The notes under the pieces: generated by a model
Databases searched by the model: none
Told to the model about the DNA's origin: nothing
The model's input: only the letters and a program-made list of their open reading frames with translations
IMG/VR virus record: IMGVR_UViG_3300037089_000251
Span: 40,510 to 104,509 of that record
From: a virus
Direction: 5' to 3' (one strand)
DNA length: 64,000 nt
Made by a program: the position numbers and the translations under genes
Shown: one piece after another, positions 5,260 to 62,026 of the stretch
Position numbering within the stretch: the stretch's first letter is position 1
Layout: the number at the start of each line of letters is the position of its first letter

Positions 5260-5306
5260 CGACTGAACAAATGAACTTTCTAAAGTATTTATATGAGGAA
5301 GTTGTC

Positions 5307-6230
5307 ATGTTCATCTATCTGATTGTCAACCACGAGACCGGGAAGTACTATGTTGGCCAGCACAAGGGAAACAACCTAAAGAAGTATCTTCAAAAAAAGC
5401 TTTCCAGTGCTAGACACCAGCACAGTGGTCAGTCTCATCTCTTCAATGCGATGCGGAAATACCCACAATCATCCATCTGGTCAATTCATGCTCTTCGGGA
5501 TGACATCCAAACCCGTACAGAGCTTGACGAAACCGAACGAGACTTCATTAAGTTCCTGCGGTCACAAGACCCAGAGTACGGTTACAATATCTGCCAAGGT
5601 GGGGAGGGATTCACAGGACCGCATACAGAAGAAACTAGAGCCAACATAGCTGAAGCTACCCGTAAATATTTTGACCTCAACCCGGAAGTTAGCCGACTTC
5701 GGGGCTTAAAAATTAGTGAGACCAAGCAGAAAAACAAAAAGCCACTGATAATGAAGGGTTGCCCTATATGCAATAAGACCTTCTTTATGCCATTTGGGCG
5801 GCGTGGTGTCATTTACTGTTCTCAGACATGTTATCAGCGTAGCCCAAGAAGAATAGAGGTGGAACAAACTCGGATAGAAAGCCACCGCATCGCTATGCAA
5901 TCTCCCACAACTCGTCGTAATTTAGCTGTAGCCCAATCTGCACGGCGCATGGAAGAAAAAAGACTGGGCATCAAACCAACTATGCCCGTTCGTATTTGGA
6001 CTAAACAGGCAAGGCAAGAACAAGCTGAACGGATGAGATTGCAACGAAGGGGGAAGCCGATGCCAGAAACTCAAAGACTTGCTATATCTAATGCACTTAA
6101 AGGCTTGGTGTGCGACGACACAAGAAAGTTATCGCTTGATAGAGGCAGGCATACCCGATGGCACTCCTCGAAAGGAGTTGTTGCCGATACTTGTCGGTTT
6201 TGCCTAGAGGGACTTTCCAAGCCTAATTAG
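5307..6230 (+). CDS. GIY-YIG homing endonuclease, 307 aa
   Basis: The product starts with the GIY-YIG module: IYLI at residues 3-6 and YYVGQ about ten residues later, followed by a conserved Arg/His region and an N-I-x-x-G-G-E-G-F segment (about residues 95-105) that links the catalytic domain to DNA-binding repeats. A CxxC...CxxxC zinc site (CPICNKTFF, YCSQTC) and basic helical segments follow. The start at 5307 is chosen over the longer open frame (from 5214) because of GAGGAA six bases upstream. The gene is clearly AT-richer than its neighbours and sits between two tail genes, as expected of a free-standing mobile element. Confidence 0.9.
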   Translation: MFIYLIVNHETGKYYVGQHKGNNLKKYLQKKLSSARHQHSGQSHLFNAMRKYPQSSIWSIHALRDDIQTRTELDETERDFIKFLRSQDPEYGYNICQGGEGFTGPHTEETRANIAEATRKYFDLNPEVSRLRGLKISETKQKNKKPLIMKGCPICNKTFFMPFGRRGVIYCSQTCYQRSPRRIEVEQTRIESHRIAMQSPTTRRNLAVAQSARRMEEKRLGIKPTMPVRIWTKQARQEQAERMRLQRRGKPMPETQRLAISNALKGLVCDDTRKLSLDRGRHTRWHSSKGVVADTCRFCLEGLSKPN

Positions 6231-8339
6231 GTGAGTATGGTGACTATAAAGACGGCCTACCTTTCCCCCTCGACTGGGACGCTGGAGATAACGGCGGTCC
6301 GGTCCTTGCAGCCGACTGCCTCCATCGTGCTTGACCTCGGCATACCAAATTTTACCGTCTTTTCAATCAAATTCCCCATCTCCTCCAGCGACCCCATGGA
6401 GTTCAGGCAGGTGAGCAGCGAGGCTCTGGGGGTCATGCTGGACGAGATGACGGCGTTCATGATAAGCACCGGCTACAAGCAGAACGTCATCGCCGGAATA
6501 TACGCCCTCGCCCTCGACTGCTACAAGGGCATGATTGCCAACGACAACCCCGCCAAGCGGGAGAAGGACCCCACCATTGGCAGCATTAGGGGAGCCTTCC
6601 GGCTGCCCCCGGAGTTCATCAACGAAACCCAGAAGTGCGTGGTTACGGCGGCAAAGACCGTCAAGCGGTCACCAAGGGAGCGCAAGCTGGAGTTCACCCC
6701 CTCCCGTCCCCTGACCCCCTCGAAGAACGATGTCCTCAAGGCCATCAAGCGGTACCGTTTCCAGAGCATCAAGAGCCAGCCCTACCCGCTCTACCTGGTG
6801 GTCTACGACAACATGGGTCGCCCCAAGGGGACGCTGTCCTTGGGACCGGGGTTCCACAACGAGCTTCTCAAGATGCAGTACAAGAAGAAGGGGTCCGAAA
6901 ACCCACAGACTGAGCAGGCCAAGACGATAGTCGAGCAAGGCGGAGGGGTGTTCAAGGGCATGTCCGAGGGCATCAACCCCGGCGAGATGCTGGCGTGGTT
7001 CGACACACCTCATCGTTCTACTCTATTCATCCCACTCCAAGGACTTACGGTAGAGGCTGTGGAGCAAGCGATTGAACAGAGCGAGGCTCGGTATGCACAG
7101 GTGGTGAAGCGTGCAGGGCAGTGGGGGCTGCGCTCCTACGACGGGGACAGCGCCCACGACATCCTCGACCGCTACCGCCCGAAGGGCGAGGACACACAGG
7201 GCTTCGACGAGCCGGTACCGGAGGACAGGCTCCCCGACCTTGTCGCCGAGCTTAACTCCATGGACCTCGGCACCCCGGACGCCAAGCAGGACTACCTCGC
7301 CGTGGTGGTGTTCCTCGTCACCCACGGCTCCGACATCCCCGACGACCTCCGCCAGTGTGCCCTTGGCATCGCCCATGAGCTTCACGGCGACACCGAGGGC
7401 AGGAATCCGGGCGGGACCACCGACCGGGGCTACAAGCTCTGGAAGGACCCCTTGGGGCGCAAGAAGGAGCTTGAGAAGGAGATGGCCATACTTGAGGGCG
7501 ACAGTGCCAAGGTGGCCAGCCTGTGGGGGATAGAGAAGCAGGTGAAGGAGGACTTCGACCCGGATGTCCTCATCGACCCCCTGACCAACATCTTCGGCAA
7601 GCTCCAGCCGGAATACCGCAACAAGCTCAAGCGGCTCCTCCTTAAGCCCAGCCACAAGACCTGGAACGACGCCTTCAGCATCATCGTGAGCGGCGGCGGG
7701 AAGTTCATGACCCTATGGCAGGCGGTCATCGCCGTGGACCCGTGGTTCCCGAGGACTGGCCCACGTGAGGACTTCAAGGGCAACCTGATATCCGGCTGGG
7801 AGAAGATTCCCGACCGCAAGACCATCATCCAAGCGCTGCGCTATGCCAACCCGGTCAAGCACGAGAAGAAGTTCAACCCGGACGACCTCAAGTTCCTTGA
7901 GTCCATGGGCATCAAGACCAGCAGGTTCCTCCGCACCGAGGAGATGCGGGCATGGGGTCAGGGTAGGCAGGACGAGTATTACTCCCAGCACCCCGAGCTT
8001 GGGAGTCCGGGAAAGAAGCTCAACCTGATGGTTACAGAGCCGGATGGCACCTCTGTGCCCTTGGCGAAGGCAGTCAGGGCAGACCACACCAACGCCGAGG
8101 GCTACTGGGCGGGCGAGGGCAATGCGGCCAGCGGCATACTCCCCATATGTACAACCACCGGAAGGATTTGCCTTGCTTGGCGCAGTCCCTATGTGAACGA
8201 GGGAAGCTGCTGGGGAACCATCGGTGGGGCGGTCAAGAGAGGGATGCAGCCCGGTCCCAGCGCCGAGGAGGAGCTTGCGGAGGAGACGGGGTATACGGGC
8301 GATATCAAGTTGTATCCAGCTTTTGTCTTTACTGCTTAA
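6231..8339 (+). CDS. Large tail-region protein ending in a cut Nudix domain (N-terminal fragment)
   Basis: About 700 residues. No fold is recognised up to about residue 620; then comes a Nudix domain with GGAVKRG...AEEELAEETGY, which keeps the metal-binding EExxEExG pattern but lacks the usual first Glu and the Arg of the box. The reading frame stops right after VFTA, just where Nudix folds continue with a beta strand. The missing strands are found at 9123-9416, beyond an inserted HNH gene. Residues about 550-562 carry the DLKFLESMGI motif shared with other proteins of this window. Start is uncertain: GTG 6231, ATG 6237 and GTG 6240 are all possible. Confidence 0.75.
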   Translation: MSMVTIKTAYLSPSTGTLEITAVRSLQPTASIVLDLGIPNFTVFSIKFPISSSDPMEFRQVSSEALGVMLDEMTAFMISTGYKQNVIAGIYALALDCYKGMIANDNPAKREKDPTIGSIRGAFRLPPEFINETQKCVVTAAKTVKRSPRERKLEFTPSRPLTPSKNDVLKAIKRYRFQSIKSQPYPLYLVVYDNMGRPKGTLSLGPGFHNELLKMQYKKKGSENPQTEQAKTIVEQGGGVFKGMSEGINPGEMLAWFDTPHRSTLFIPLQGLTVEAVEQAIEQSEARYAQVVKRAGQWGLRSYDGDSAHDILDRYRPKGEDTQGFDEPVPEDRLPDLVAELNSMDLGTPDAKQDYLAVVVFLVTHGSDIPDDLRQCALGIAHELHGDTEGRNPGGTTDRGYKLWKDPLGRKKELEKEMAILEGDSAKVASLWGIEKQVKEDFDPDVLIDPLTNIFGKLQPEYRNKLKRLLLKPSHKTWNDAFSIIVSGGGKFMTLWQAVIAVDPWFPRTGPREDFKGNLISGWEKIPDRKTIIQALRYANPVKHEKKFNPDDLKFLESMGIKTSRFLRTEEMRAWGQGRQDEYYSQHPELGSPGKKLNLMVTEPDGTSVPLAKAVRADHTNAEGYWAGEGNAASGILPICTTTGRICLAWRSPYVNEGSCWGTIGGAVKRGMQPGPSAEEELAEETGYTGDIKLYPAFVFTA

Positions 8340-8388: not shown

Positions 8389-9150
8389 ATGAACAAAACA
8401 TCAGGGTATGTTCAGGCTAAGCCGATTCCATACGAAGGGCTTGACCTTTGTTTCTACAAATGTGGCTCCGTGGCAAAGTATCGGCAGAAAAATGGCAAGT
8501 TATGCTGTAGCCGACACTTTATGTTATGCCCGACCATGACGACCAAAAAAGCCAAGCCAGATATCGACTTGACGGGTCAGGAGGTGGGATATTGGAGGGT
8601 GCTTGCCTATGCCTTCAACGGGAAATGGGCTTGCCGTTGCATATGTGGAGTGGAAAGACCTGTCAAGACTCAAGCCTTGGTCGAAAAGACCAGCAAGTCG
8701 TGTGGGTGTAGGAGGGAAGAATTTGTAAGTGCGGCTTTCACGAAAAGGCACGGGTTGAGGGCACGGTACTCCATTTTTAACAATTACAGGGGGGCTGCCC
8801 GCCGTCGAGGGTATGAGTGGGGATTGTCCTTTGAACAGTTTTGTGGTTTTTTAGAAAAGCCTTGTTTTTATTGCGGTATCAAGCCTAGCTCGCTGTGGAA
8901 CGATTCCTACATGGACCGTGCGGGAAAGCATTTTGGTAAGCGCCAAGATTTCTACTATAACGGGGTAGACAGGCTTGACAACTCTGCTGGATATGCTGAG
9001 GGAAATTGCGTTACAGCGTGTTGGCGTTGCAATTTTTCTAAGAATGATTTAAGCCGGGAGGAATGGTTGACTTGGGTTAAGCGGCTGTATGAGCATCAGG
9101 AATTGGACAAAGGAGTATTGGTGTGCCTTTCAAATATCACAACTTCATAG
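8389..9150 (+). CDS. HNH homing endonuclease inserted in the Nudix gene, 253 aa
   Basis: The N-terminal half has a Cys-rich zinc module (WACRCICG...SCGCRR, about residues 85-110), and the C-terminal half the HNH core: CFYCG, then NGVDRLDN, then GNCVTACWRCN (about residues 160-215), a His-Cys-type zinc-stabilised HNH. A near relative lies at 34278-34910 and a fragment at 10087-10296. The gene is AT-rich. Its last 28 bases overlap the downstream Nudix fragment in another frame. Only about 50 bases separate the Nudix stop from this start and almost none follow the HNH core, so there is no obvious room for a group I intron; it looks like an intron-less insertion that splits its target gene. Confidence 0.9.
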   Translation: MNKTSGYVQAKPIPYEGLDLCFYKCGSVAKYRQKNGKLCCSRHFMLCPTMTTKKAKPDIDLTGQEVGYWRVLAYAFNGKWACRCICGVERPVKTQALVEKTSKSCGCRREEFVSAAFTKRHGLRARYSIFNNYRGAARRRGYEWGLSFEQFCGFLEKPCFYCGIKPSSLWNDSYMDRAGKHFGKRQDFYYNGVDRLDNSAGYAEGNCVTACWRCNFSKNDLSREEWLTWVKRLYEHQELDKGVLVCLSNITTS

Positions 9151-9416
9151 GCACCGTCTCGCATGAATTTGGTCTCCATCCTAATGAAGAGCATGGCTGG
9201 GAGACTGAGGCACTTGAGTGGTTCACTTTTGAGGAGGTCCAAGAGATGATGAGGACCGACCCCGGAAGTTTTCATCCCGGTCTTATAAAGCTGTTCAAGC
9301 AGTCCGGCAAGCTCATCCAGCAAATTTGTAACCGGGAAAGAAGAGGGAAGGGAAAAGGCAATGAGAAACCAGATACAGGCAACGCCGATGCCAGCACCAC
9401 CGGCAACGCTGCTTAA
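9123..9416 (+). CDS. C-terminal half of the split Nudix protein, 97 aa
   Basis: The first 55 residues (FKYHNFIGTV, then a P-N-E-E-H-G-W-E-T-E segment and an EALEWFTFEEV helix start) are the C-terminal strands and helix of a Nudix hydrolase, following directly on from the fragment that ends at 8339. It has its own signals: AAGGAG at 9110-9115, seven bases before GTG 9123. It could thus be made as a separate chain that pairs with the N-terminal fragment. The tail (residues 75-97) is Lys/Gly/Asn-rich and overlaps the next gene by 56 bases. Whether the pair is active is unknown. Confidence 0.7.
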   Translation: MPFKYHNFIGTVSHEFGLHPNEEHGWETEALEWFTFEEVQEMMRTDPGSFHPGLIKLFKQSGKLIQQICNRERRGKGKGNEKPDTGNADASTTGNAA

Positions 9417-12296: not shown

Positions 12297-12311
12297 GTGA
12301 GGAGCACCGAT

Positions 12312-13304
12312 ATGGCCACACCCAGCCCGTTCAAGTCCGCCTTTCTCAAGAGCGCCGAGCCTCTTCTTTACGTCGTCAAGCGGGATGGGAAGCCCCTTAC
12401 CGACCCGATGTCCCACAACGAGTGCTTCGAGTGGCTCCAGAAGGCACATCCTGCCTATTCCGTGTCCCATGCCACCCAGTACGAGGGGTTCTCCATAGAC
12501 CCCGCCCAGCCCGGCGATGCCGCCGGACCCGAGGACCCGACGCTCGCCCCCAACTTCTTCAAGACCGACGACAAGGACTTCCTGAGGGAGATGGGGATAT
12601 CGTCATCGCTCAAGCGGCGTCCCGACTATGGGCTGGCCAGACCGATAGACCCCCTTGCCAAGAAGGCAGGGTTCAAGTTTGAAACCCCTGGATTGGACAG
12701 GCAGCAGCTTACGAAGGATGTGGCCAAGTATAGGGAGCTTCTGGCAAAGACCAAGGACAACAAGGAGTCGGAAGACCTGGCATTCAAGCTCTCGCTGGCG
12801 GAAGCAAAGTTGAAGATGCTGAGCCAAAAGCAGGCTGCGGGCATATCCGCCGCCCCGAGGGACTACCCGGTCAAGAGGCAGAAGGACGGGTTCTGGTACA
12901 TCATCGGCTTACAGGGAGAGGAGCTTAGCGAGAACGCCGAGGGTTCCCCCACGATAAAGACCCCGGACTCGTGGCTCAATGTCCACCAGAACGCCAAGAA
13001 CCTCGACCTTTCCGAGCAGATTTACCGGGAGCTTTATGCCGAGTTCCAGACCAACGACAACCTCAAGGACGGGGACACCTTCAGCACCCCCATTGGCCAG
13101 TTCATATGCAAGGGGGTGGATGTCATCCCCGCCGACGATATGGCCAAGCAGGCGATAGCCGAGGTCGATGAGAGCTACCGGTGCGCTAACTGCGGGTGTG
13201 ACCAAGGGATGCACCGCAAGGGCTATGACGACAACGGCTATCAAGTGTATGGCCAGTGCTCAGACCATCCCGAGTGCAAGGAATATGTACGCCGTGGTGA
13301 GTGA
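12312..13304 (+). CDS. Protein with shared DKDFLxxMGI motif and C-terminal zinc ribbon, 330 aa
   Basis: ATG 12312 follows GTGAGGAG (12297-12304). Residues 87-96 read DKDFLREMGI, a motif repeated in the 1376-residue protein at 51177 and in the Nudix fusion at 6231. Residues about 115-180 form a helical region (RQQLTKDVAKYRELLAK), and the C-terminus has CANCGCDQGMH...CSDHPEC, a zinc-binding cluster. The family is not recognised. The shared motif suggests it ends up in the same complex, perhaps inside the virion; this is inference. Confidence 0.6.
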   Translation: MATPSPFKSAFLKSAEPLLYVVKRDGKPLTDPMSHNECFEWLQKAHPAYSVSHATQYEGFSIDPAQPGDAAGPEDPTLAPNFFKTDDKDFLREMGISSSLKRRPDYGLARPIDPLAKKAGFKFETPGLDRQQLTKDVAKYRELLAKTKDNKESEDLAFKLSLAEAKLKMLSQKQAAGISAAPRDYPVKRQKDGFWYIIGLQGEELSENAEGSPTIKTPDSWLNVHQNAKNLDLSEQIYRELYAEFQTNDNLKDGDTFSTPIGQFICKGVDVIPADDMAKQAIAEVDESYRCANCGCDQGMHRKGYDDNGYQVYGQCSDHPECKEYVRRGE

Positions 13305-48009: not shown

Positions 48010-50016
48010 ATGAAATCTAAGCTCATCAACCGCCGCAAGAAGGCCACCACATTGGTCAGTCCCGAGACTCTCCAGATGGCGGTCAAGAAGGGTCAGGAGA
48101 TTATCCCGATTCTCCAGTCCAAGAACGACCCTCGGCTGGCGAAGCTCCAGAAGGCTGTCCAGTGGCTAAGCAGGGTGGCCAAGTCGCCCATGGGGCAGAC
48201 CAACCTTGACGACCAAGCCTACCCGCAGTATGCCCAGACCGTCAGGCAGTATGTGGAGTGGGTGAGCCAGCTTGCGGGCACTTTCCGTGACAGCAACGCC
48301 ATGGAGCAGACGGAAATTCCTGAGACTGTTTCCCAAGTAGCCTCGGCAGGTGCCGACCCGTGGGTGACAGACAGAGATGAGAAGTCGGAGGCTAAGATGC
48401 CTGTAAAGGCAGAAGTACCTCGTTTGGCAGCACAGAAGAAGACAGCCCAGCCGGGAGTACCTCCCGGTGCCCCGCCCCCTCCCGCAGGAGCAGGCGGAGG
48501 AGCGGCCGCAGCACCCGCCCCAGCCCCGGCCGCAGCGGCAGGAGCAGCGCCAGCACCCGTCAAGCAGGCTCCCCCTATCACGCAGGCAGGCAATGGGGAC
48601 ATCAACGCCGACATCCACCAGATGTCCAGCGAGACGCTTGCCAACATCATCTCCGCCATCTCCAAGAACGTGGAAATCAACGACAAGGCAGGTCTGGACT
48701 TTATGGAGTCACTAGCCAAGCAACTCAAGGGACGCCCCGTGGAGACACAGGCTCCCGCAGGCAGGGCAGCTTCCGTCAAGGACACATTGAGCCTCTACGA
48801 CGGCAACAGAACCGCCACGGGCGAGATGACGCAGTCGGAGGCGGATAGCCCCGAGGAGTGGCCTATTCACCATGCCATCGCCCAAGCCCTCGGCGGCAAG
48901 GTCAAGGCGTTCGACGTATACCAGGGACCCTACATCCTCATCGGCTCGGAGATTCGTGGCGAGGGCGTCTATGCCCCGGCGTTCCCACAGGCAGGCACCG
49001 TCCGCCTCTGGGTGCAGTCAGAGGGTGACGGCGGGCTGCTCACCGTCTACAACGAGGAAAACGAGAAGCAGAGCGAGCCATTTGCGTGGGACGACACGAT
49101 AGCGGCAGTCGAGGCTGCCCGGAGCGTCCTCGGGGAAGGTGGTGGAGAGGCGGAGATGGAGAACCTATGTATGGCCAGCCTGAGGCTTGCCGGTATAGAG
49201 GGCGAGCCGGTGGGAAAGGTAGCCGTGACCCCTCCTGACATCAGCGAGGAGACGGCGCACGAAATCAAGGATGAGTATCCGGGCGAGAAGGACAAGGCCT
49301 ATGCCACGATGTGGGCTATCCACAACAAGAAAAAGAAGAAGGGGACCCTCCGTGAGGTCCTTGCCGACCTTCACAAGGAGATTGACGCCTATGTCCTGAA
49401 GACCGCAGCCGGGTCGGAGGGAAGCTCTTGGTTCGTCGAGGACCAAGACACCATGGATATCAAGGAAGGCGACAAGAACGTGAAGGAGATTGCCGAGGCG
49501 CACGGTCTGGAGGACGAGGGTCCTGCCAAGCTGGAGCGCCACGAGACCACCCTTCCCATCACCCTCAACGGCAGCAAGAACGCCGCCGAGGAGATGAAGG
49601 CGACCAAGGCGCTCAAGGAGGTCGAGAAGCTGTCCGACCGCCTCAAGGAGATGTACCTGGACGCCAAGGAGATTACCAACGCCAATGATTCCCGCCCTGT
49701 CAGGGAGGCGGTGGAGGCAATCTACCGGGCGTATGACCAGCTTGGTCAGGCTGCCAAGGTACTCGGCAAGCAGCAGATGCAGGAAGAGGCCGAGGAAGAC
49801 GCAGTCAAGGTCAAGGAGAAGGCCAGCAAGAAGAAGGGCAACTGGATGGACAGCTTGGTCTTAGCGGCAGAGGACGACGACGATGAGGTCAAGTGCGAGG
49901 GTTGCGGGAAGCCCCACAACAACCAGAACGGAGGCTACTTGTCCGAGCTTTGCAGGAAGTGCGAGAAGGAGACCGAGGCGGAGAAGAAGCGGACAAAGTT
50001 CAAGGACAAGCAGTAG
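48010..50016 (+). CDS. Large virion-region protein with Ala/Pro linker and zinc ribbon, 668 aa
   Basis: N-terminal helical domain (about 1-120), then a long flexible Ala/Pro/Gly linker (about 140-200), a middle beta domain (VYQGPYILIGSEIR), a segment EIKDEYPGEKDKAYATMWAIHNKKKKK that resembles a motif common in phage virion proteins, then acidic helices and a C-terminal CEGCGK...CRKC zinc ribbon. It has KKTAQ and LKTAAG sequences like those in the next large proteins. Possibly an internal or scaffold-like head component; inference. Confidence 0.5.
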   Translation: MKSKLINRRKKATTLVSPETLQMAVKKGQEIIPILQSKNDPRLAKLQKAVQWLSRVAKSPMGQTNLDDQAYPQYAQTVRQYVEWVSQLAGTFRDSNAMEQTEIPETVSQVASAGADPWVTDRDEKSEAKMPVKAEVPRLAAQKKTAQPGVPPGAPPPPAGAGGGAAAAPAPAPAAAAGAAPAPVKQAPPITQAGNGDINADIHQMSSETLANIISAISKNVEINDKAGLDFMESLAKQLKGRPVETQAPAGRAASVKDTLSLYDGNRTATGEMTQSEADSPEEWPIHHAIAQALGGKVKAFDVYQGPYILIGSEIRGEGVYAPAFPQAGTVRLWVQSEGDGGLLTVYNEENEKQSEPFAWDDTIAAVEAARSVLGEGGGEAEMENLCMASLRLAGIEGEPVGKVAVTPPDISEETAHEIKDEYPGEKDKAYATMWAIHNKKKKKGTLREVLADLHKEIDAYVLKTAAGSEGSSWFVEDQDTMDIKEGDKNVKEIAEAHGLEDEGPAKLERHETTLPITLNGSKNAAEEMKATKALKEVEKLSDRLKEMYLDAKEITNANDSRPVREAVEAIYRAYDQLGQAAKVLGKQQMQEEAEEDAVKVKEKASKKKGNWMDSLVLAAEDDDDEVKCEGCGKPHNNQNGGYLSELCRKCEKETEAEKKRTKFKDKQ

Positions 50017-50086: not shown

Positions 50087-50779
50087 ATGGCGCAAGGCGG
50101 TTACATCTATCAGCAAGGAGCAAGCCCCCAGACGGAATCCGTAATCTCGTCTCGCTTCAAGATTTTTACGGATGTCGTGGGTGTGGGCAAGTTTGTGAAG
50201 CTGGGCGTCACGTCCTCCTTCCAAATCTCTGAAACCCGCACGGTCGAGGCAATCCGTGGGTTGGGCTATGGCGACCAAGTCGCTGAGCTTGTGCCCGGCG
50301 TCACGGAACCGCTGAGCATCACCATCCAGCGCACCTGCCTCTACCTTGCCAACATCATGCAGGTTCTCGGCTACAAGGCTGGCGTATCAGGCGGCGTCCG
50401 TTCCATCCGTCATCACCGCTGGCCGTTCGACATCAAGACCGAGATTGTCTTCTCCCAGCTTGCCTCGGAAGACCCGAGCAACGCCTCCGGTTTCGGCGGC
50501 GGAACCCCGGACCTCACCCCTGCGGACATCCCGAACGAGGGTGGGTTCAACAACCTCGGCAACCCCGGACTACAGGCGGTTGCGACGGTGTACGAGGGCT
50601 GCTGGATTTCCAACTACACCACTGGCTATGCCATTGAAACGGCCGCCGTGAACGAGAACGTAACCGTCTCCGTCACCGACATCTTCGATGTCAGCGGCAC
50701 GGTGTACGGTGAGTTCCTCGACAGCGGTCTGAACTCCGGTGATGCGACCGGCAGGAGCTTGCTCTACTCGATTTCTTAA
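50087..50779 (+). CDS. Probable tail tube protein, 230 aa
   Basis: Starts behind CAGGAGGAAG. The chain is all-beta with the order expected of tail tube subunits: FKIFTDVVGVGKFVKLGVTSSFQISETRTVEAIRGLGYGD, then VPGVTEPLSITIQRTCLYLANIM, then HHRWPFDIKTEIVF and YEGCWISNYTTGYAIET...ENVTVSVTDI near the end. Lying downstream of the sheath and with a size around 230 residues, it is a good tube candidate, although no named family could be confirmed. A GC hairpin (GCCGCC/GGCGGC) lies 15 bases before the ribosome binding site. Confidence 0.65.
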   Translation: MAQGGYIYQQGASPQTESVISSRFKIFTDVVGVGKFVKLGVTSSFQISETRTVEAIRGLGYGDQVAELVPGVTEPLSITIQRTCLYLANIMQVLGYKAGVSGGVRSIRHHRWPFDIKTEIVFSQLASEDPSNASGFGGGTPDLTPADIPNEGGFNNLGNPGLQAVATVYEGCWISNYTTGYAIETAAVNENVTVSVTDIFDVSGTVYGEFLDSGLNSGDATGRSLLYSIS

Positions 50780-51176: not shown

Positions 51177-54100
51177 ATGCTTACCAAGCCTCACTCGTCG
51201 CTGCTCCAGAAGAAAGCCTCCATGCTGCCCATCCCCGGAACAGGGGGGGTCGGTGGGATTGACGTTGCCGATATGGATAGCCTTGCCAGTCATGGCTTGG
51301 ACAGCCCGGCAGACCCCGCCAACAACTATACCCCTCTCTATGGCAAGGGGTCGGAGACGGATAGCCTCAAGCAGGCATGGTGGAGGGGTCGCAGTAAGAA
51401 CTACAAGCCTTGGAATCCCAAGGGCTGGTCCACGCAGCAACTCGCCGAGGGGATGGAGTCCAGAAAGAAAAGGATTGCTGAGGCAAATATAGAACGGGAC
51501 GAGGAGTTCACCAAGTACGTCCCTATTACCGACCGCCCCAGCGACTACTGGGAGCAGATGGACTATGACAGCGCCAACCGCATGGGACGGGGAATCCTCC
51601 ATGACGATGTCCGGGGACGGCGCTTCCGGGACCTTGACAAAGAGATTGCCCGCCTCAAGCGGGAGATGCGGTCCATAGAGATTGAGCAGGGGCGGCAAGC
51701 CAAGTCCCCTCTCCAGCAGCCTACCACCGCCAGCCTGAAGCTTGCCGACAACTCCATATGCCGTTGTGGTCATCAGTGGCACGAGCATTGGAGCCTCGGT
51801 AATTTTGGCTGCAAGGACACCTCGTGCGAGTGCAAAGGGTTCAAGGCAAAGACCGGCTCCGTAAACTCATTGCTCCACCCCAAGCGGGCCGACCTGAGCG
51901 ACATCTGGGCAACCGGGAGCGAGGGACTGGGGGACAAGGAGGACTTCCGGGCAGGACTTAAGCAGGAATGGGACGACCCGGACGGCTACCTGTACCGCTC
52001 CGAGGTCTACTGCCCCCGCTGCGGTCGGGAGCTTATCGACGAGCTTATCGACACCAAGCAAATAGGTCCGTCTGCACCGGATGAAAACGACGAGTGGACC
52101 AAGGACTCGGACATAGTCCCCCAGCCCATACTCTCCTTGGAGCCTGGCATGGAGAGATGCGGGAAGTGCGGCGACGACGCCCGCCCGGAGACGAGGGAGC
52201 CGGGCGAGCTTAACGACCAAGACAAGGACTTCCTCAAGGACATGAAAATCTCCCTCGCTTCCCTCAAGGGGCTTTCCAAGCGGGTAGCCTCGGACAGTCC
52301 GCTACTTCAGCCGCCCGACCCAAGCAGCGCCACCTTCTTCAAGGAGAGCGAGAACGACGGCTGGGAGGACCCCGAGTACAACAAGGAGTGGCTAAAGGGG
52401 GTAAGGGCAAAGAAGAAGCCCCGCTGCCCGCATTGCGGCTCAGATGATTATGCCCTGATGCCTACCGACTTCGAGACTGCCAAGTGCAACAAGTGCGAGA
52501 AGACCTGGGACCACGGCATCGTGCCGGGGATAAACGACCCCAGTGAAGGCAAGACGGCGGCGAACCCCAACCACACCGTGCGGGACTTCAACCGCAAGAA
52601 CCCTAATAGGTGGAAAGAACTCAGAGAGAGTCAAGGGGTGCCTGAACGACCCTTGCAGCCCTTCACCCAGTGGCTCATCGAAGAGGCTGGGAAGGGAAAG
52701 CGTTACAATACCATTGAAGAGGCACGGGCTGTCTATGACACCTTGCCTGCCGAGGGCAAGACTGCCTCCGACTGGAATACCGAAGACCCCTCCAAGATGG
52801 ACCCGGCTCTCGCCGCCCATCTCAGGAGCAAGGGGATGAACCCATGGATGGCCCCCACTACCAGGCTCCCTGATGCGGAGATGAAGAAGTTCCCGATAAC
52901 CAAGGAGATTCTGGCTTGGGAGAAGGAGACAGGACGCCGGATGGACTCCGGGCAGGCATCCCTGCTCCTCCCCCGGACGGCCGCCGATGCGGGTCCCGAG
53001 GGCTTCCCCCCGCCCCAGCGTGAGCTTGACTACGATGGGTGGTCCACCATCGGCACCCTGCGCAAGCGCATGACGGAACTCTACAATGCCTGGCGCAACA
53101 AGGAAATCACCCGTGAGGAGTACGAGGTCGAGAACTACCTCCTGAATGTAGCCAGAGAGGCTGCCAAGAAGGCTTGGACAGACGACCCCAAGTACCGGGA
53201 ACTGACCAAGGCCATAGACTCATCGGAAGGCAGGAATGACACGGACTTCCTGAAGTCAATGGGAGTCACATCTGCCAAGAACGCCAGCGAGAAGTCCTAC
53301 GGCATGGGCACACCGCTCGGCGGGGCATCCAGCGTGCCCGCCCCGAACAACACGCAGGAGAAGTCACAAGACCCACTCCAGACCCCACAGAGTCCATGGC
53401 AACCGCCCGACACCGCCAAGGCCAACACCGCCCCGGAGCAGGCGACCGACCAGATGGCGGACGAGGTGGTGAAGAAGCTCCAGGACAAGATGGGCAATGT
53501 GGAACTCTCCCAAATCGTCCGGACCGACGAGGGCGAGGAGAAGCCGGGCAGGTCGGACATCAAGCGGCACATCGACAAGAGCTTGCTTGACAAGGACTAT
53601 TCCCCTCCCCGCCCGCTGAGCAAGGGTGCGGGTATAGCAGATGAGGCAGAGTATGACGAGGAGCCGTATGACCCAGAAGCTTACAATGCGAATGCCTTCC
53701 TCAGAGCAGACGAGAGTGTTGAAGACCTACCCACCATTAGACAGATAGAGGAAACCAACAAAGCCCCTGCTGAGTTGGAGTGCAATACCTGCAAGCTGAA
53801 AAGCAGCCAGATGAATGATGGAAAAGCCACCAACTATGAGTTGGCTATATGGCTGATGAGGCAGCATCTCCACGATAAACACCAAGCGAAGTTTGGTCCC
53901 CATTCATTCACTAATCTCACTTCTGTCGAAAGGAATCTTACGCCGAGCAGCGAAGACAAGGACTTCCTCAAGGGGATGGGCATCAAGGAAGCTGGGCGCT
54001 ACCACGGATACGGTGAGGACGAGGGCGACGACGAGGAAGTCACCGACCTCGGAACCAAGTATGGGCAGCCCATCGGGGGTAAGCCCAAGCCAGAGTACCG

Positions 54101-55307
54101 TTGCCCCATATGCGGATGGAGCGGCGAGGGGTCCATGCTGAACCACATGCAGGCATACCATCCCGGAAGCACCCCATCCATCGACATCGACGAGACGCTC
54201 TCCGATGTCAAGATGGGACCGGAGGACCATTGCCCGATATGCGGACTCAACTGGGTGGGATGGGGACAGAGCTACAAGGACGACCACACCGAGGGTCACC
54301 TTGCCAAGAAGGAAGCACCGCCGTCCTCCAAGCCCCCTCGATTCCGCCCGACCAAGGACGACAAGGACTTCCTCAAGGGGATGGGCATCAAGGGGTCGAA
54401 GACCGCCGCCGACGCCGAGGCGTGGTGGAGGAGCACCGTCAATACCAAGCGCCGGGAGCTTGCGGGCGCATTGGGCATCGACAAGTACTGGAGCCATTTC
54501 GTCTGGGAGTCCCTGCCCCCGGAGATACAGGAGAAGGTCAAGGCAAGCCTGCCGCAGGCGACAGAGCCACAGCTTGAGCTTAACCCCGAGGACAGGGAAC
54601 TCCTCGGCGGCATGAAGATACAGGCTGCGGGCAAGAAATGGAACCCCATATTGGCCAAGGAATTCTATGACAAGGGGCTGGCATCGGCCATGGACGGCAA
54701 CTGGAACGAGGCGGCCAACGCCCTGAGCCAGTCACTCAACCACAACCCCTATAACGGACCTGCTCATTTCATGCTGGGTATTGTCTTCGCCCAAGACGGG
54801 GACACGGCAGCAGCACTCTCGCAGTTCAAGGACTCCCTCCGCACCAGCCCCAAGGAGGACTACCCCTACCATGGGATTATCACCGAGCTTTCCCGCAAGG
54901 GCGAGCTAGACGGGCTTCCGCAGGACGTGAAGAACTATCTCCTCGACAACATGGTGGCCAAGACGGCGGCGGGCAGCAAGGTAGCCAAGGGTTTGGGTGC
55001 CCCGATAAAGGAGCGCACGGCCGCTGAGGGAGAGACGTGGTGGAGGAGTTGCAAGACCTGCGGAAAGCCCGCCTTGGAGTTGAAGAAGGGGGAGAACGTC
55101 CGGGGACCAGTGTGGTGCGAGGAATGCTCCCCAAGTGGTCTCAAGGAACCCCGTACCCTCCCGAAAGCAGCGGTGCAGGTGGAGGATGGTGTCAACCTCG
55201 TGTGCCCAAACTGCAAGGGGACGGAAACCAAACCCGTGGACGACCCTGATACCGAGGATGGAAATCTAGTCGAATGTGTAACATGTGGGGCGTTCTTTGC
55301 CAAATAA
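51177..55307 (+). CDS. Giant multidomain protein with five DKDFLxxMGI motifs and zinc ribbons, 1376 aa
   Basis: Five copies of an acidic-x-D-F-L-x-x-M-(G/K)-I motif lie at residues 349-358, 688-697, 927-936, 1062-1071 and 1139-1148, spaced by unlike sequence. Between them are zinc clusters (CRCGHQWHEH...CECKG near 195; CPRCG...CGKCG near 280-335; CPHCG...CNKCEKTW near 420; CPICGW...H and CPICGL...H near 980-1040; CKTCGK...CEEC and CPNCKG...CVTCG at the C-terminus) and a TPR-like segment (FYDKGLASAMDGNWNEAANALSQSL, near 1165). Several KTAA/RTAA sites occur. It looks like a string of domains, possibly a processed internal head protein. No family known to me. Confidence 0.55.
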   Translation: MLTKPHSSLLQKKASMLPIPGTGGVGGIDVADMDSLASHGLDSPADPANNYTPLYGKGSETDSLKQAWWRGRSKNYKPWNPKGWSTQQLAEGMESRKKRIAEANIERDEEFTKYVPITDRPSDYWEQMDYDSANRMGRGILHDDVRGRRFRDLDKEIARLKREMRSIEIEQGRQAKSPLQQPTTASLKLADNSICRCGHQWHEHWSLGNFGCKDTSCECKGFKAKTGSVNSLLHPKRADLSDIWATGSEGLGDKEDFRAGLKQEWDDPDGYLYRSEVYCPRCGRELIDELIDTKQIGPSAPDENDEWTKDSDIVPQPILSLEPGMERCGKCGDDARPETREPGELNDQDKDFLKDMKISLASLKGLSKRVASDSPLLQPPDPSSATFFKESENDGWEDPEYNKEWLKGVRAKKKPRCPHCGSDDYALMPTDFETAKCNKCEKTWDHGIVPGINDPSEGKTAANPNHTVRDFNRKNPNRWKELRESQGVPERPLQPFTQWLIEEAGKGKRYNTIEEARAVYDTLPAEGKTASDWNTEDPSKMDPALAAHLRSKGMNPWMAPTTRLPDAEMKKFPITKEILAWEKETGRRMDSGQASLLLPRTAADAGPEGFPPPQRELDYDGWSTIGTLRKRMTELYNAWRNKEITREEYEVENYLLNVAREAAKKAWTDDPKYRELTKAIDSSEGRNDTDFLKSMGVTSAKNASEKSYGMGTPLGGASSVPAPNNTQEKSQDPLQTPQSPWQPPDTAKANTAPEQATDQMADEVVKKLQDKMGNVELSQIVRTDEGEEKPGRSDIKRHIDKSLLDKDYSPPRPLSKGAGIADEAEYDEEPYDPEAYNANAFLRADESVEDLPTIRQIEETNKAPAELECNTCKLKSSQMNDGKATNYELAIWLMRQHLHDKHQAKFGPHSFTNLTSVERNLTPSSEDKDFLKGMGIKEAGRYHGYGEDEGDDEEVTDLGTKYGQPIGGKPKPEYRCPICGWSGEGSMLNHMQAYHPGSTPSIDIDETLSDVKMGPEDHCPICGLNWVGWGQSYKDDHTEGHLAKKEAPPSSKPPRFRPTKDDKDFLKGMGIKGSKTAADAEAWWRSTVNTKRRELAGALGIDKYWSHFVWESLPPEIQEKVKASLPQATEPQLELNPEDRELLGGMKIQAAGKKWNPILAKEFYDKGLASAMDGNWNEAANALSQSLNHNPYNGPAHFMLGIVFAQDGDTAAALSQFKDSLRTSPKEDYPYHGIITELSRKGELDGLPQDVKNYLLDNMVAKTAAGSKVAKGLGAPIKERTAAEGETWWRSCKTCGKPALELKKGENVRGPVWCEECSPSGLKEPRTLPKAAVQVEDGVNLVCPNCKGTETKPVDDPDTEDGNLVECVTCGAFFAK

Positions 55308-55338: not shown

Positions 55339-56238
55339 ATGTCTTTTGAGAAGGTCGCCAGTGCGGTAGTCAGGGAGCCGGTGCTCACCCCCCAAGCTTG
55401 GGAGCAGGAATGGGGCGGTAGGGCGTTTCATATCCCTCTGTCCACGCCCGCCAAGACGTTCTGGAAGACCGCCTCGTCCAACAAGACCAAGTACCTCCTG
55501 AGCCACTGCACCATCATGTCCTCCGTGGCCACGGAATCCGCCCCCGAGGACTATCTCATCCGCCCGGCCTCTGCCCACCTCGTTAACAACAATGATGACG
55601 CTTGGTCGAACGGCGTCATGAAGTCATCCTACAAGACCTTCGTGGGGGCGTTCAACTTCGTCGAGCACTTCCAGAACAGCAAGTACGCCAAGGGGCATAT
55701 CGTCGATAGCGTCCTGCGCAAGATACACCTGACTCAGGACCCACGGGACAGCGTCTACTTCGTGGACATCCTCGTGGCCACCGACCTGTCCCACAGCAAG
55801 CTGGCCGCCCAGATTCGCAACGGGGAGGTCAAGTACCTCAGCATGGGCTGCGTCACCGACCTCGTCATCTGCTCATTCTGCGGGCAGCATGTTACCGATG
55901 CCTCGACCTACTGCCACCACCTCCAGTTCAACAAGGGTTCGTTCCTCCCCGACGAGGACGGGCAGCCCCGCCGTGTAGCCGAGCTTTGCGGCCACGAGTC
56001 CCTGCCGGGCGGCGGCGTCAAGTTCGTGGAGGCAAGCTGGGTGCAGACCCCGGCGTTCCCCGGAGCCGTAAAGAGGTCGATTGTGGCGGAGGAATGGCTG
56101 GGTCCGGCCACCTCGTATACCCGCAAATCCGCCGATGCTAGCAGATTTGCCAAGGCTGCCTCGCAAAACGAGGACTATGGTTCCCTTAATTTGGGAGAGA
56201 TGTTGCTCTCACGGGACAACGGAGGAAATCTCAGATAA
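55339..56238 (+). CDS. Prohead protease-like protein, 299 aa
   Basis: Positioned before a scaffold-like gene and upstream of the capsid gene, the usual place of the head maturation protease. VDILVATDLSHSKLAAQIRNGEVKYLSMGCV (about residues 145-175) has the protease pattern of a strand, a helix and then the L-S-M-G turn with the likely nucleophile Ser; a candidate His lies in NFVEHFQ. A CSFCGQHV...YCHHL zinc-like insertion follows. Its last base overlaps the scaffold start. Assignment rests on pattern and context. Confidence 0.65.
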   Translation: MSFEKVASAVVREPVLTPQAWEQEWGGRAFHIPLSTPAKTFWKTASSNKTKYLLSHCTIMSSVATESAPEDYLIRPASAHLVNNNDDAWSNGVMKSSYKTFVGAFNFVEHFQNSKYAKGHIVDSVLRKIHLTQDPRDSVYFVDILVATDLSHSKLAAQIRNGEVKYLSMGCVTDLVICSFCGQHVTDASTYCHHLQFNKGSFLPDEDGQPRRVAELCGHESLPGGGVKFVEASWVQTPAFPGAVKRSIVAEEWLGPATSYTRKSADASRFAKAASQNEDYGSLNLGEMLLSRDNGGNLR

Positions 56239-58559
56239 TGGCAAACACCAACCCACTTATCCTGAAGTATCGGCGCAAGGTGGCTGAACTCGGCCAACTG
56301 GACAACGAAATCAACAAGCTGGACATGACCCTCCCCGAGGGCGAGGGCGAGAAGACGTTCGACTACCTTGCCCAGAAGCGCACCGAGATTGAGGAAGAAA
56401 TCAAGGGCATGCAGGAGAAGGTGCAATTCCTGACTGCCTGGGGACGATTCAAGGAAGGACCGTGGTCGGAGGCTCTCAAGTCCGAGCTTGACGGCTTGGA
56501 CGATAACATCGGGGAGATTGCCACCAGCAATGCCGCCCCCACCGACGAGCCGCTCACCGAAGCCGGACTACCGGCCCCCCCGAAAGCAACCTCCCCGAAC
56601 GAGCCGCCCCTGCCCGAGGCAGGACCGGAAGTACCCCCCGAGCCATCCCCCACCGAGGACTTCCCCCCGGAGGCACCCCCTGCCGAGGCGTCACCAGAGC
56701 CACCCGTAGGACCCGAAGGAACCTCCGAGGTTCCGCCCGAACCATCTCCTGCCCCGCCAACACCCATGCAGGCGAGCAAGAAACACAACTATCCAAGTTC
56801 TAATAAGAAGGGCAATACCAGCCCTAACTCCGAGAGGGGAAAGATTATGGCAAACGACACGAAGACTTCATTGAAAGAAAAGCTCGCCGACCTGAAGCAG
56901 AACCGGGCAGTAATCAGCCGGGAAGCCAAGATGAGGGTCGCCGCAGCTTGGACCATCGCCAAGACGATGCTCCCGTCCGCCCCGGTGGAAGCCCAGAAAG
57001 CGTTCGCTGCGTCCTTGCTCAACAACAAGACCAGCGCCCTCAAGGCTGCCTTGAAGCAGACCGCCGTCAACGCCCATTACACCAAGGTGGCCGAGACCTT
57101 CAAGGAAGTCCACAAGGTCGAGATGAACGACCTCTTGGAGAACCCCAGCGTCCTCTCGGAAGCGAAGAACGCCGTGAAGTCCGAGGTCAAGGGCGAGGCG
57201 AAGAACGCCACCCCCAAGAGCGCCGACGACCGCAAGGACGCCGGACCGCAGACCCCGACCTATAACGACGGTCGTGGCCATGGCGGTGGGACTGCCTCGG
57301 AGCCGAAGGAAGTCGATGCCGGTAAGGCAGCCGAACGTCCGGGTGCTGGCGAGCGTCCTGGCGACACCGTGGACCTGTCCGAGGGCAAGTCGGCTGGCAA
57401 GAAGGCGGCCGTATGTCCCAACTGCAAGGGCGGAAAGATGTGCTCCAAGTGCGCTGCCAAGGCAGCCGCCGCCAAGTCCAAGAAGGCGGAGTTCCCGCCC
57501 GCCGCAGGCGCACCGCCTGCTGCACCTCCTGTTGACGCAGGCGCACCCCCAGTGGATGCAGGCGTACCGCCTGTTGACGCAGGAGCGCCCCCGGTAGAGG
57601 AGGGAATCCCCGGTGAAGAGCCGCCCATGGACATGCCGCCCACAGATGGTCTGCCCCCGGCTGGTCCCGAAGGCGGGATGGGTGGAGAGGCCGAGGCCAC
57701 CGAGATGGTGACCGAGGAGAAGATTAAGGAACTCGGCGAGAAGGCGCAAGAGCTTTCCGACGAAATCCAAGCCCTCGTCCAAGATGTCAATGCCGAGGAG
57801 GCCGAAGGGGAGGAAGTTCCCGGAGGCGTCCTGGAGACCGAAGGCGAGGAGCTTGAGGAAATCGGCGAAGGCTTGGAAGGCGAGGCCGAGGTCGTTGAGG
57901 GAGAGGGCGAGTCGCTCGAAGGCGAAGGCGACGAGCAGGCGCTTGACCTCGACCAAATCTTCAACGAGGAGTCCATGGGCGAGAAGCAGTCAGCCCTGGC
58001 GAACGAGTCCGACAACAGCGGTTCCGAGTTCTTTGCCCCCTCCGCTGCCATGGACATGGAAGCCACTCTGGATGACAACGGCGTGCAGGAATTTGGCGAT
58101 GTCGTAGCCGCCATGTTCAGCCGCCAAGGTGCGGACGACGACCCATTGGCAGCACTGATGGGCGGAGTCAGGACCGCTGCCCAGGTGGCAGGCATGGAAG
58201 TCGTGCCCAGCTTTACGGGCGAGGCTGCCAAGCACTTCGAGCAGAGCGAAACCAGCAAGGAGGCTCGTGACAGCGAGTCCGACCACTCCGACGACCTCTG
58301 GGCCGACACCATCAAGATTGTGGAGCCAGAGGACAGCGAGCAGAAGCGCACCCCGCAGGATGCCGTGCCGGAACTCAAGGAACCCGCCGAAGGCAAGGCT
58401 CCTGAGTCTCAGGGCAAGGCAGCAGGCAGAGCAGCCGCAAAGCCCGCCGCCAAGAAGCCCGCAACCCTTCGGAAGATTAAGCCCATCATCGCTTCCGACA
58501 AGGATGCGCCGAAGAACTTCGACCCGGCAAAGGCGTTGTTCGCTGACGACTTCGAGTAA
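56238..58559 (+). CDS. Scaffold-like head protein with internal start, 773 aa
   Basis: Coiled-coil N-terminus (RRKVAELGQLDNEINKLD...EEIKGMQEKVQF), a Pro/Glu linker (about 100-180), then at residue 204 an internal Met with GAGAGGGGAAAG upstream (ATG 56847), starting a helical, Lys/Ala-rich part. A CPNCKGGKMCSKC site, PVDAG repeats and a very acidic stretch (about 480-600) follow, ending in a basic tail. High charge and low Cys/Trp fit a scaffolding or core protein that is cut by the protease encoded just before it. The internal start could yield a 570-residue second form. Confidence 0.6.
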   Translation: MANTNPLILKYRRKVAELGQLDNEINKLDMTLPEGEGEKTFDYLAQKRTEIEEEIKGMQEKVQFLTAWGRFKEGPWSEALKSELDGLDDNIGEIATSNAAPTDEPLTEAGLPAPPKATSPNEPPLPEAGPEVPPEPSPTEDFPPEAPPAEASPEPPVGPEGTSEVPPEPSPAPPTPMQASKKHNYPSSNKKGNTSPNSERGKIMANDTKTSLKEKLADLKQNRAVISREAKMRVAAAWTIAKTMLPSAPVEAQKAFAASLLNNKTSALKAALKQTAVNAHYTKVAETFKEVHKVEMNDLLENPSVLSEAKNAVKSEVKGEAKNATPKSADDRKDAGPQTPTYNDGRGHGGGTASEPKEVDAGKAAERPGAGERPGDTVDLSEGKSAGKKAAVCPNCKGGKMCSKCAAKAAAAKSKKAEFPPAAGAPPAAPPVDAGAPPVDAGVPPVDAGAPPVEEGIPGEEPPMDMPPTDGLPPAGPEGGMGGEAEATEMVTEEKIKELGEKAQELSDEIQALVQDVNAEEAEGEEVPGGVLETEGEELEEIGEGLEGEAEVVEGEGESLEGEGDEQALDLDQIFNEESMGEKQSALANESDNSGSEFFAPSAAMDMEATLDDNGVQEFGDVVAAMFSRQGADDDPLAALMGGVRTAAQVAGMEVVPSFTGEAAKHFEQSETSKEARDSESDHSDDLWADTIKIVEPEDSEQKRTPQDAVPELKEPAEGKAPESQGKAAGRAAAKPAAKKPATLRKIKPIIASDKDAPKNFDPAKALFADDFE
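56847..58559 (+). CDS. Nested in-frame product of the scaffold gene, 570 aa
   Basis: ATG 56847 is in frame and is preceded by GAGAGGGGAAAG. The sequence just before it is linker-like (NKKGNTSPNSERGK), as expected for a fusion boundary. Nested scaffolds of this kind are known in lambda (Nu3 inside C). Expression is not proven. Confidence 0.4.
   Translation: MANDTKTSLKEKLADLKQNRAVISREAKMRVAAAWTIAKTMLPSAPVEAQKAFAASLLNNKTSALKAALKQTAVNAHYTKVAETFKEVHKVEMNDLLENPSVLSEAKNAVKSEVKGEAKNATPKSADDRKDAGPQTPTYNDGRGHGGGTASEPKEVDAGKAAERPGAGERPGDTVDLSEGKSAGKKAAVCPNCKGGKMCSKCAAKAAAAKSKKAEFPPAAGAPPAAPPVDAGAPPVDAGVPPVDAGAPPVEEGIPGEEPPMDMPPTDGLPPAGPEGGMGGEAEATEMVTEEKIKELGEKAQELSDEIQALVQDVNAEEAEGEEVPGGVLETEGEELEEIGEGLEGEAEVVEGEGESLEGEGDEQALDLDQIFNEESMGEKQSALANESDNSGSEFFAPSAAMDMEATLDDNGVQEFGDVVAAMFSRQGADDDPLAALMGGVRTAAQVAGMEVVPSFTGEAAKHFEQSETSKEARDSESDHSDDLWADTIKIVEPEDSEQKRTPQDAVPELKEPAEGKAPESQGKAAGRAAAKPAAKKPATLRKIKPIIASDKDAPKNFDPAKALFADDFE
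57522..57602 (+). repeat. Tandem PVDAG peptide repeat in scaffold gene
   Basis: Three to four copies of a ~24-base unit encoding PPVDAGAP/PPVDAGVP. Confidence 0.7.
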
Positions 58560-61027: not shown

Positions 61028-62026
61028 ATGGCAAACCTTTCCCGCACACAACAGCAGACGGCGATGCTTGGCCAACTGCTTAAGACCGCTGGCGGACGGC
61101 AGAAGCTCGCCGCTAGCCTCGGACCGTCGCTTCGTCGGCGTCGTGACTACATGAGCATCGCTCGCAAGGCGCTCATGGTCGAAACGCTGCCGGACGGCGC
61201 ACTTCCCATCTATGACAAGGAATTTGACGTATCCGCCCAGACCGTGTCCAGCACGCCTGGCGGGTCCTTCGTCGAAGCCTTCGTCGTTGGCGAGGAAGGC
61301 GGAGACATCGTTCGGGTTACCAAGCCCAAGCGTGTCACCGTTCCGACGTTTGAAATCGTGTCCAACCCGATGATTCCGATTACCCAGATTAAGGAGCGCC
61401 GTTTTGACCTCGTCGCTCGTTCCCTTAACCTGGCAAAGGCTGAAGTCGGCGCTGCCGAAGACGGCTACGTGTTCGGTCTCTTCGACGCTGTCGCTGCCGC
61501 TGCGAACGCTCAGGTGGCAATTGACAACGCCGCAAAGGCTGGCTCGGGTCTCTTCGACCCAGTATACAACGGCGACATCGCAATCTCGCCGCCCATCGAC
61601 ATCAACTCGATGGCAGACGGTTTCGGACAGGTTCAGCGTCATGACCTCTCCGTCGCCTTCTGTTTCTTCAACCCCCGTGACTACACGGACCTGTTGAAGT
61701 GGACCCAACAGAATATCGACCGTGAGACCCAGCGCAAGCTTCTCAAGACGGGTGTCATGGGCTACCTCTGGGGAGCCACACTGCTCCAGTCCCGTAAGGT
61801 AGGCTACGGATGCATCTACATCCTGGCTGATGCCGAGTTCCTCGGCGTTATCCCGGAGCGCATCCCGCTCACCGTCATGTCCGCCGACCGGCCTGACCTC
61901 CGTCAGATTGGGTTCAGCATCTTCGAGAACCTCGGGTTCTTGGTGTTCAACCCCTCCGGTGTTCAGCGGCTCACCGTCACTGGGCGCTTCCAGGTGTTCA
62001 ACGGCTTCAACCAGGGCGAGAACTAA
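61028..62026 (+). CDS. Major capsid protein, 332 aa
   Basis: Length and layout fit an HK97-fold capsid protein: a basic, helical N-terminal segment (residues 1-50, LRRRRDYMSIARKALMVETLPDG), an E-loop-like stretch, a central helix (LVARSLNLAKAEVGAAEDGYVFGLFDAVAAAA) and a C-terminal beta region (LGVIPERIPLTVMSADRPDLRQIGF, then VFNPSGVQRLTVTGRFQVF). It has highly regular codon use, a GAGAGGAG ribosome binding site and its own terminator, all expected of the most abundant phage protein. The protease and scaffold genes upstream support the call. Confidence 0.85.
   Translation: MANLSRTQQQTAMLGQLLKTAGGRQKLAASLGPSLRRRRDYMSIARKALMVETLPDGALPIYDKEFDVSAQTVSSTPGGSFVEAFVVGEEGGDIVRVTKPKRVTVPTFEIVSNPMIPITQIKERRFDLVARSLNLAKAEVGAAEDGYVFGLFDAVAAAANAQVAIDNAAKAGSGLFDPVYNGDIAISPPIDINSMADGFGQVQRHDLSVAFCFFNPRDYTDLLKWTQQNIDRETQRKLLKTGVMGYLWGATLLQSRKVGYGCIYILADAEFLGVIPERIPLTVMSADRPDLRQIGFSIFENLGFLVFNPSGVQRLTVTGRFQVFNGFNQGEN

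Follow-up and report, generated by a model that had tools for sequence, protein, structure and literature searches.

A short motif recurring in candidate polyvalent polyproteins encoded beside a phage head maturation protease

Polyvalent proteins, leader-directed loading of the phage head and motif-specific prohead proteases are already known. Phage polyvalent proteins, such as DarA and DdrB of P1 and the virion RNA polymerase of N4, are multidomain proteins that combine ADP-ribosyltransferase (ART) with other effector domains and for which packaging and injection are presumed (Iyer et al. 2017, PMC5512222); DarA and DdrB are reported there to be proteolytically processed (for DarA see also PMC12810830). 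The T4 internal proteins IPI-III and Alt, the latter an ADP-ribosyltransferase, are packaged in the head and ejected, and their N-terminal leader of 10-19 residues is removed by the prohead protease gp21 (PMC9026906). In the giant phage SPN3US, the prohead protease gp245 cuts many internal proteins, and itself, at one short motif (PMC10052503). Encapsulin cargo-loading peptides are short, usually C-terminal sequences that load cargo into an HK97-like shell (PMC7355545). Here, we describe a short motif, D-K-x-F-L-x-x-M-G-I, that recurs in three proteins of 1376, 702 and 335 amino acids (aa) encoded in a 64,000-nucleotide window, namely, bases 40,510-104,509 of the 104,509-bp IMG/VR record IMGVR_UViG_3300037089_000251. 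In our assessment, the chances are about even that these carriers are capsid-packaged polyvalent polyproteins and that the motif serves some of the mature fragments as a docking helix at their tail.

All seven motif copies listed in the original prediction were found again (Table 1), and the near-identity over about 33 bases that had been noted for two of them, copies 3 and 4 of the 1376-aa protein, extends over 34 consecutive identical bases. The remaining 40.5 kb of the record hold no further copy, and a degenerate DNA pattern, with 2 mismatches allowed at most, matched the genome seven times, six of these matches being motif copies, whereas the reversed control gave 0. A 19-column profile built solely from the seven copies was then scored on 42 homologous proteins of related phages that are encoded in the same slot as the 1376-aa protein, between a tube-like gene and the head maturation protease gene. 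At a threshold of 19 bits or more, 21 windows were found versus 0 in 200 shuffled sets, and at 15 bits 24 windows versus a shuffled mean of 0.03, part of the matches being orthologues of the copies in the window. The exact pattern had 2 matches in 297 bacterial genomes (one phylum), with 0 for the control. Similar windows do arise by chance in folded proteins, for example, in a DUF4422 protein and at the probable BRCT end of a ligase, but the profile result and the scarcity of exact matches make it extremely improbable that a common amphipathic helix was merely picked out by eye.

Among 43 non-redundant slot proteins, 16 were found to contain 31 confident motif instances in 11 unrelated flanking contexts (carriers within the slot being counted). 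Refinement led to the consensus [LPY]-T-x-x-D-K-x-[FW]-[LM]-K-x-[ML]-[GK]-[IV]-K-x-[SA]-K, which includes Ser/Ala and Lys at positions +3 and +4 after the Ile. An acidic residue had been proposed to precede each copy; this was the case for five of the seven, whereas two are preceded by Q and N, and in the wider family a Thr or Ser three residues before the Asp is the conserved preceding feature. Judging from the sequence, T-x-x-D may cap a helix in the usual way, and the hydrophobic residues of the motif would lie on one helix face. AlphaFold models copies 4 and 5, with low confidence, as two short helices set apart from the TPR region, which is itself modelled well. No family name for the motif itself was returned by PHROGs, PADLOC or Pfam, a 27-aa motif peptide had no match in 50,697 phage records, and a DNA-level inspection of Tunturi_5, phage G and LR745208 revealed no convincing motif. 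A motif-like match in the L057 group was set aside, the protein being a DUF4422 protein. Also set aside was a 690-aa open reading frame (ORF) of the 307-kb phage G001 that ends in EADFFKMLGM, which we take to resemble the BRCT end of a DNA ligase.

The 1376-aa carrier belongs to the lineage of the Tunturiibacter phage Tunturi_5, a 309-kb phage with a host from the Acidobacteriota. Its gene is directly followed by that of the maturation protease, and the gene of the major head protein is located nearby. The assignment of the protease is based on the family match given in Table 1 and on matches of its predicted fold in the BFVD database, among them gp19 of Bacillus phage G and a number of prohead proteases; a fold search of the PDB with the protease model, which has a pLDDT (predicted local distance difference test) of 62, gave no match. 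Relatives were gathered via their maturation protease, and both the slot and modular homologues of the 1376-aa protein are present in them. These slot proteins are about 1000-2600 aa long, the longest open frame having 2572 codons, and consist of swappable modules such as Zn ribbons, TPR, GNAT and ART-like domains, the last starting with LYHxT immediately after K-x-A-A, while the slot of Tunturi_5 holds only a 169-aa protein. The slot polyproteins have a common leader, [SN]PL[LF]x[KR][KR]A. Within the group L190-L269, most start with this leader and have a conserved Zn ribbon, CPxC...LxECxxCGxFF, at their end, whatever the middle.

The carriers have several effector-type domains per polypeptide: a homologue of the 702-aa protein, L005, has ART-PolyVal and NUDIX domains, GNAT domains occur in the slot homologues, and the 1376-aa protein has TPR and Zn-ribbon matches to Pfam that are weak and below the curated cut-offs. 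The original prediction that the carriers share no clear domain is only partly right, since all three are modular and of the polyvalent type. Compared with the known polyvalent proteins (PMC5512222), the present ones differ in having a repeated protease-like site between modules, an adjoining protease gene and a recurring motif that ends some modules. No such motif was found in the passages of that survey that were considered.

The protease-like site is K-x-A-[SA]. In 53 slot-type proteins, 100 such sites were found, compared with 29.6 +- 5.6 after shuffling, and 36 homology breakpoints lie within 5 residues of a site, compared with 11.3 for random positions (maximum of 21 in 500 trials). The clearest swap concerns a Zn-ribbon module ending in ...NWDHGIVPGINDP or similar, which in six phages precedes K[TE]A[SA], with a different module coming next in each of them. 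The idea that the motif marks recombination points was rejected, since 7 breakpoints were found near the motif versus 4.2 expected, whereas the K-x-A sites do mark them. In 36 relatives of the protease, K-x-A occurs at three places within the otherwise variable ends of the protein, and the N-terminus of the major head protein, LLKTAGGRQKLAAS, contains two K-x-A sites. Because the same tetrapeptide is conserved in the variable ends of the protease and at the capsid N-terminus, K-x-A-[SA] is probably the maturation cut site, and it is probably the site of the adjacent protease, by analogy with T4 gp21 and SPN3US gp245, each of which recognizes a single short motif in many head proteins. In SPN3US, cleavage takes place after A-x-E and removes N-terminal propeptides, except for the C-terminal one of gp245 itself; the available text describes neither a release of tandem modules nor a C-terminal tag (PMC10052503). 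A second repeated element, LN[DA]QGELF[SA]-x-[DE]KT[AS][AS], is present in three copies between small repeated domains at about residues 695-880 of the G003 polyprotein L250.

Table 1. Coordinates of the motif copies, likely cleavage sites and genes in the window (position 1 is the first base of the window)
Feature	Position	Strand	Remarks
Motif copy 1, DKDFLKDMKI	52221..52250	+	residue 349 of 1376-aa protein
Motif copy 2, DTDFLKSMGV	53238..53267	+	residue 688 of 1376-aa protein
Motif copy 3, DKDFLKGMGI	53955..53984	+	residue 927 of 1376-aa protein
Motif copy 4, DKDFLKGMGI	54360..54389	+	residue 1062 of 1376-aa protein; then KGSKTAA
Motif copy 5, DRELLGGMKI	54591..54620	+	residue 1139 of 1376-aa protein; directly before TPR module
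Motif copy, DLKFLESMGI	7884..7913	+	residue 552 of 702-aa protein (6231); ends mobile module of about 130 aa
Motif copy, DKDFLREMGI	12570..12599	+	residue 87 of 335-aa protein, counted from ATG at 12312
KKAS, likely propeptide cut site	51210..51221	+	N-terminal leader SSLLQKKAS; leader common to slot polyproteins
RVAS, likely cleavage site	52281..52292	+	
KTAA, likely cleavage site	52551..52562	+	end of Zn-ribbon module ...GINDPSEG; in five relatives this module also ends at K[TE]A[SA], with different modules following
KTAS, likely cleavage site	52758..52769	+	
RTAA, likely cleavage site	52974..52985	+	
KNAS, likely cleavage site	53277..53288	+	directly after motif copy 2
KTAA, likely cleavage site	54399..54410	+	directly after motif copy 4
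KTAA	54960..54971	+	after TPR module
RTAA, likely cleavage site	55014..55025	+	
KVAS, protease N-terminus	55351..55362	+	K5 and A7 invariant in 36 relatives
KTAS, likely self-processing site	55465..55476	+	variable N-terminal region of protease
KAAS, protease C-terminal region	56152..56163	+	A274 invariant, S275 over 90%
1376-aa polyvalent polyprotein (Zn ribbons, TPR)	51177..55307	+	slot flanked by the genes of the tube-like protein and the maturation protease
702-aa polyvalent protein	6231..8339	+	5' part of NUDIX-containing gene
335-aa protein	12297..13304	+	ATG at 12312; leader SPFKSAFLKSAE, motif, C-terminal Zn-ribbon-like cysteines
Tunturi_5 gp328 homologue	48010..50016	+	gp328 annotated as DNA ejection protein
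Tube-like virion protein	50087..50779	+	bounds slot; orthologue of Tunturi_5 gp329
Head maturation (prohead) protease, 299 aa	55339..56238	+	phrog_18299, E 1.5e-15; closest named relative Tunturi_5 gp331
Scaffold/core-like protein, 773 aa, acidic, low complexity	56238..58559	+	with K-x-A sites; by position and sequence; homologues in G003, G005 and Tunturi_5
Major head protein	61028..62026	+	phrog_2522, E 4.7e-41; 69% identical to that of Tunturi_5

K-x-A was found at most 14 residues downstream of the motif for 18 of the 31 copies, versus 4.8 expected, and upstream for only 3 of the 31. Since K-x-A is mostly located downstream, the motif appears to be where modules end on their C-terminal side. 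The same arrangement, together with the Ser/Ala and Lys in the consensus, could also be taken to mean that the maturation protease is bound by the motif, as an exosite or an extended helix for recognition, and is thereby directed to cut at the downstream K-x-A. We regard this as unlikely, as most K-x-A-[SA] sites have no preceding motif and stand-alone proteins with a C-terminal motif leave nothing to cut. Such stand-alone proteins occur in other phages and end in SDDDFLKGMGIA-stop, ESDKDFLHRMGIK-stop, QSDTDFLHKMGINAGG-stop and SDDDFLKGMGIKGKSKR-stop. Five distinct carriers, plus one in G001, have the motif within 14 aa of the C-terminus, so that, as with encapsulin cargo-loading peptides, a C-terminal peptide is present on several unrelated proteins, and these carriers may well be cargo. 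The likeness is confined to the short C-terminal peptide, no relation in sequence being claimed, and binding of the shell by the motif is putative. It has also been considered that the motif is a functionless linker relic that was copied along with modules by recombination. Duplication has indeed occurred, given the two copies with 34 identical bases, and modules move as blocks; however, the F/L/M/G/I pattern is kept in 11 unrelated flanking contexts and in the stand-alone proteins, with differing codons and diverged flanks, which makes this explanation very unlikely.

Another possible link to the head lies in N-terminal leaders. In G001, four carriers start with leaders like MKLYLKAFVKTAD, MKLNLKAFVKQSD or MAELRLIARIKKAG (MKLxLKAxVKxA-type), and about ten further genes of this phage have the same leader. 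A dozen or so unrelated G001 genes (L110-L125), one of them ADP-ribosyltransferase-like (98518-98901), have the N-terminus MKLxLxAxV[KR]KA in common. By a strict count, leader and motif coincide in only 2 of the 4 carriers (P 0.006), the leaders of the other two being similar by eye only. One G001 carrier is located near a probable capsid gene and also near a homologue of a module of a G005 slot polyprotein. The leaders of the slot polyproteins and of the G001 carriers resemble the capsid targeting sequence of T4 (PMC9026906). However, the T4 tag is N-terminal and removed, whereas the present motif would be an additional element at the C-terminal side, with K-x-A-[SA] as the putative cut site. 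The motif is thus no targeting sequence of the T4 type: it lies internally before K-x-A or at the C-terminus, and a separate N-terminal leader is present.

The two other carriers in the window are encoded outside the slot. In the 702-aa protein (W702) and in L005, the same module of about 130 aa, ending in the motif, sits at two different places. A GIY-YIG homing endonuclease ORF (window positions 5214-6230) is located directly upstream of the 702-aa gene. The NUDIX domain of this gene ends at 8339, an HNH/endonuclease VII ORF covers 8389-9150, and the NUDIX coding sequence resumes at about 9141-9368, which resembles an intron-like insertion. The motif of the 335-aa protein reads EDQAFMKDVGI in the orthologue of G012, and the orthologue of G018 is devoid of the motif-bearing stretch between LKSA and KQAAGISA.

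We propose that the three carriers would be polyvalent proteins of a jumbo-type myophage that are made late and built into the prohead, possibly into its core. The adjacent maturation protease would cut the K-x-A-[SA] linkers and free separate effectors, which would be ejected with the DNA, so that the 1376-aa protein and the other carriers would be packaged in the capsid and then injected. In some modules, the motif would make up the C-terminal end, folded as a short amphipathic helix with an N-cap. Cutting would turn it into a tail close to the C-terminus, the position that it already occupies in the stand-alone carriers. This tail would most likely dock the fragment on one common head-assembly partner, which may be the core or scaffold, the interior of the shell or the protease. 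The original prediction of a packaging or targeting tag, a docking peptide or a protease-related signal fares accordingly in part: in its favor, the motif is present in head-module polyproteins, is N-terminal to likely protease sites and is found at C-termini of proteins with a propeptide-like leader, but many slot polyproteins are devoid of it and one carrier is membrane-like.

Several observations weigh against this proposal. Cleavage at K-x-A and packaging are steps that we infer, the model of the motif helix is of low confidence (pLDDT of about 40-50), and the motif itself shows no enrichment at module breakpoints (7 versus 4.2). Of the 43 slot proteins, 27 have no confident motif, some of them being fragments or neighbouring genes; the motif is therefore not needed for packaging in general and is no universal packaging tag. 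The G008 carrier (L068, 17882-18562), a 227-residue ORF that ends in SDDDFLKGMGIA, resembles a multi-pass membrane protein and has no leader, and the small carriers of G007 and G010 have no known link to the head. In T4, maturation releases the prohead from the membrane (PMC9026906), and it might be speculated that a membrane-anchored carrier could fit a head route. The slot polyproteins devoid of the motif, the predicted membrane protein and the small G007 and G010 proteins would also agree with the motif being a targeting tail that attaches an effector, in the infected cell, to a protein of the host or to one of the phage that has no part in head assembly, for reasons unrelated to packaging. 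This is a possible but rather improbable alternative, as most carriers in G000, G001, G003 and G005 are associated with the head or with a leader, and as the motif goes along with polyvalent proteins in the searched genomes.

The papers searched contained no description of the motif, of its partner or of a phage effector polyprotein delimited by repeated cut sites. We tentatively advance a more specific form of the docking proposal, namely, that a jumbo-phage lineage may use two-signal loading, in which effectors are strung together as a polyprotein and cut apart by the maturation protease inside the prohead at K-x-A-[SA], and the pieces with a D-K-x-F-L-x-x-M-G-I tail are each held by one dedicated head receptor until ejection, with any effector being pluggable by recombination at the cut sites. 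The protease, the slot and the K-x-A sites are also present in Tunturi_5, a relative that has been isolated. If the proposal is correct, a simple rule based on motif and cut site would allow injected effectors of uncultured phages to be predicted from sequence, and the motif might be attached to other proteins as a portable tag that loads them into phage heads. Furthermore, a single head-assembly route would deliver many unrelated takeover proteins of large phages, and new ones would be gained by the exchange of modules at protease sites.

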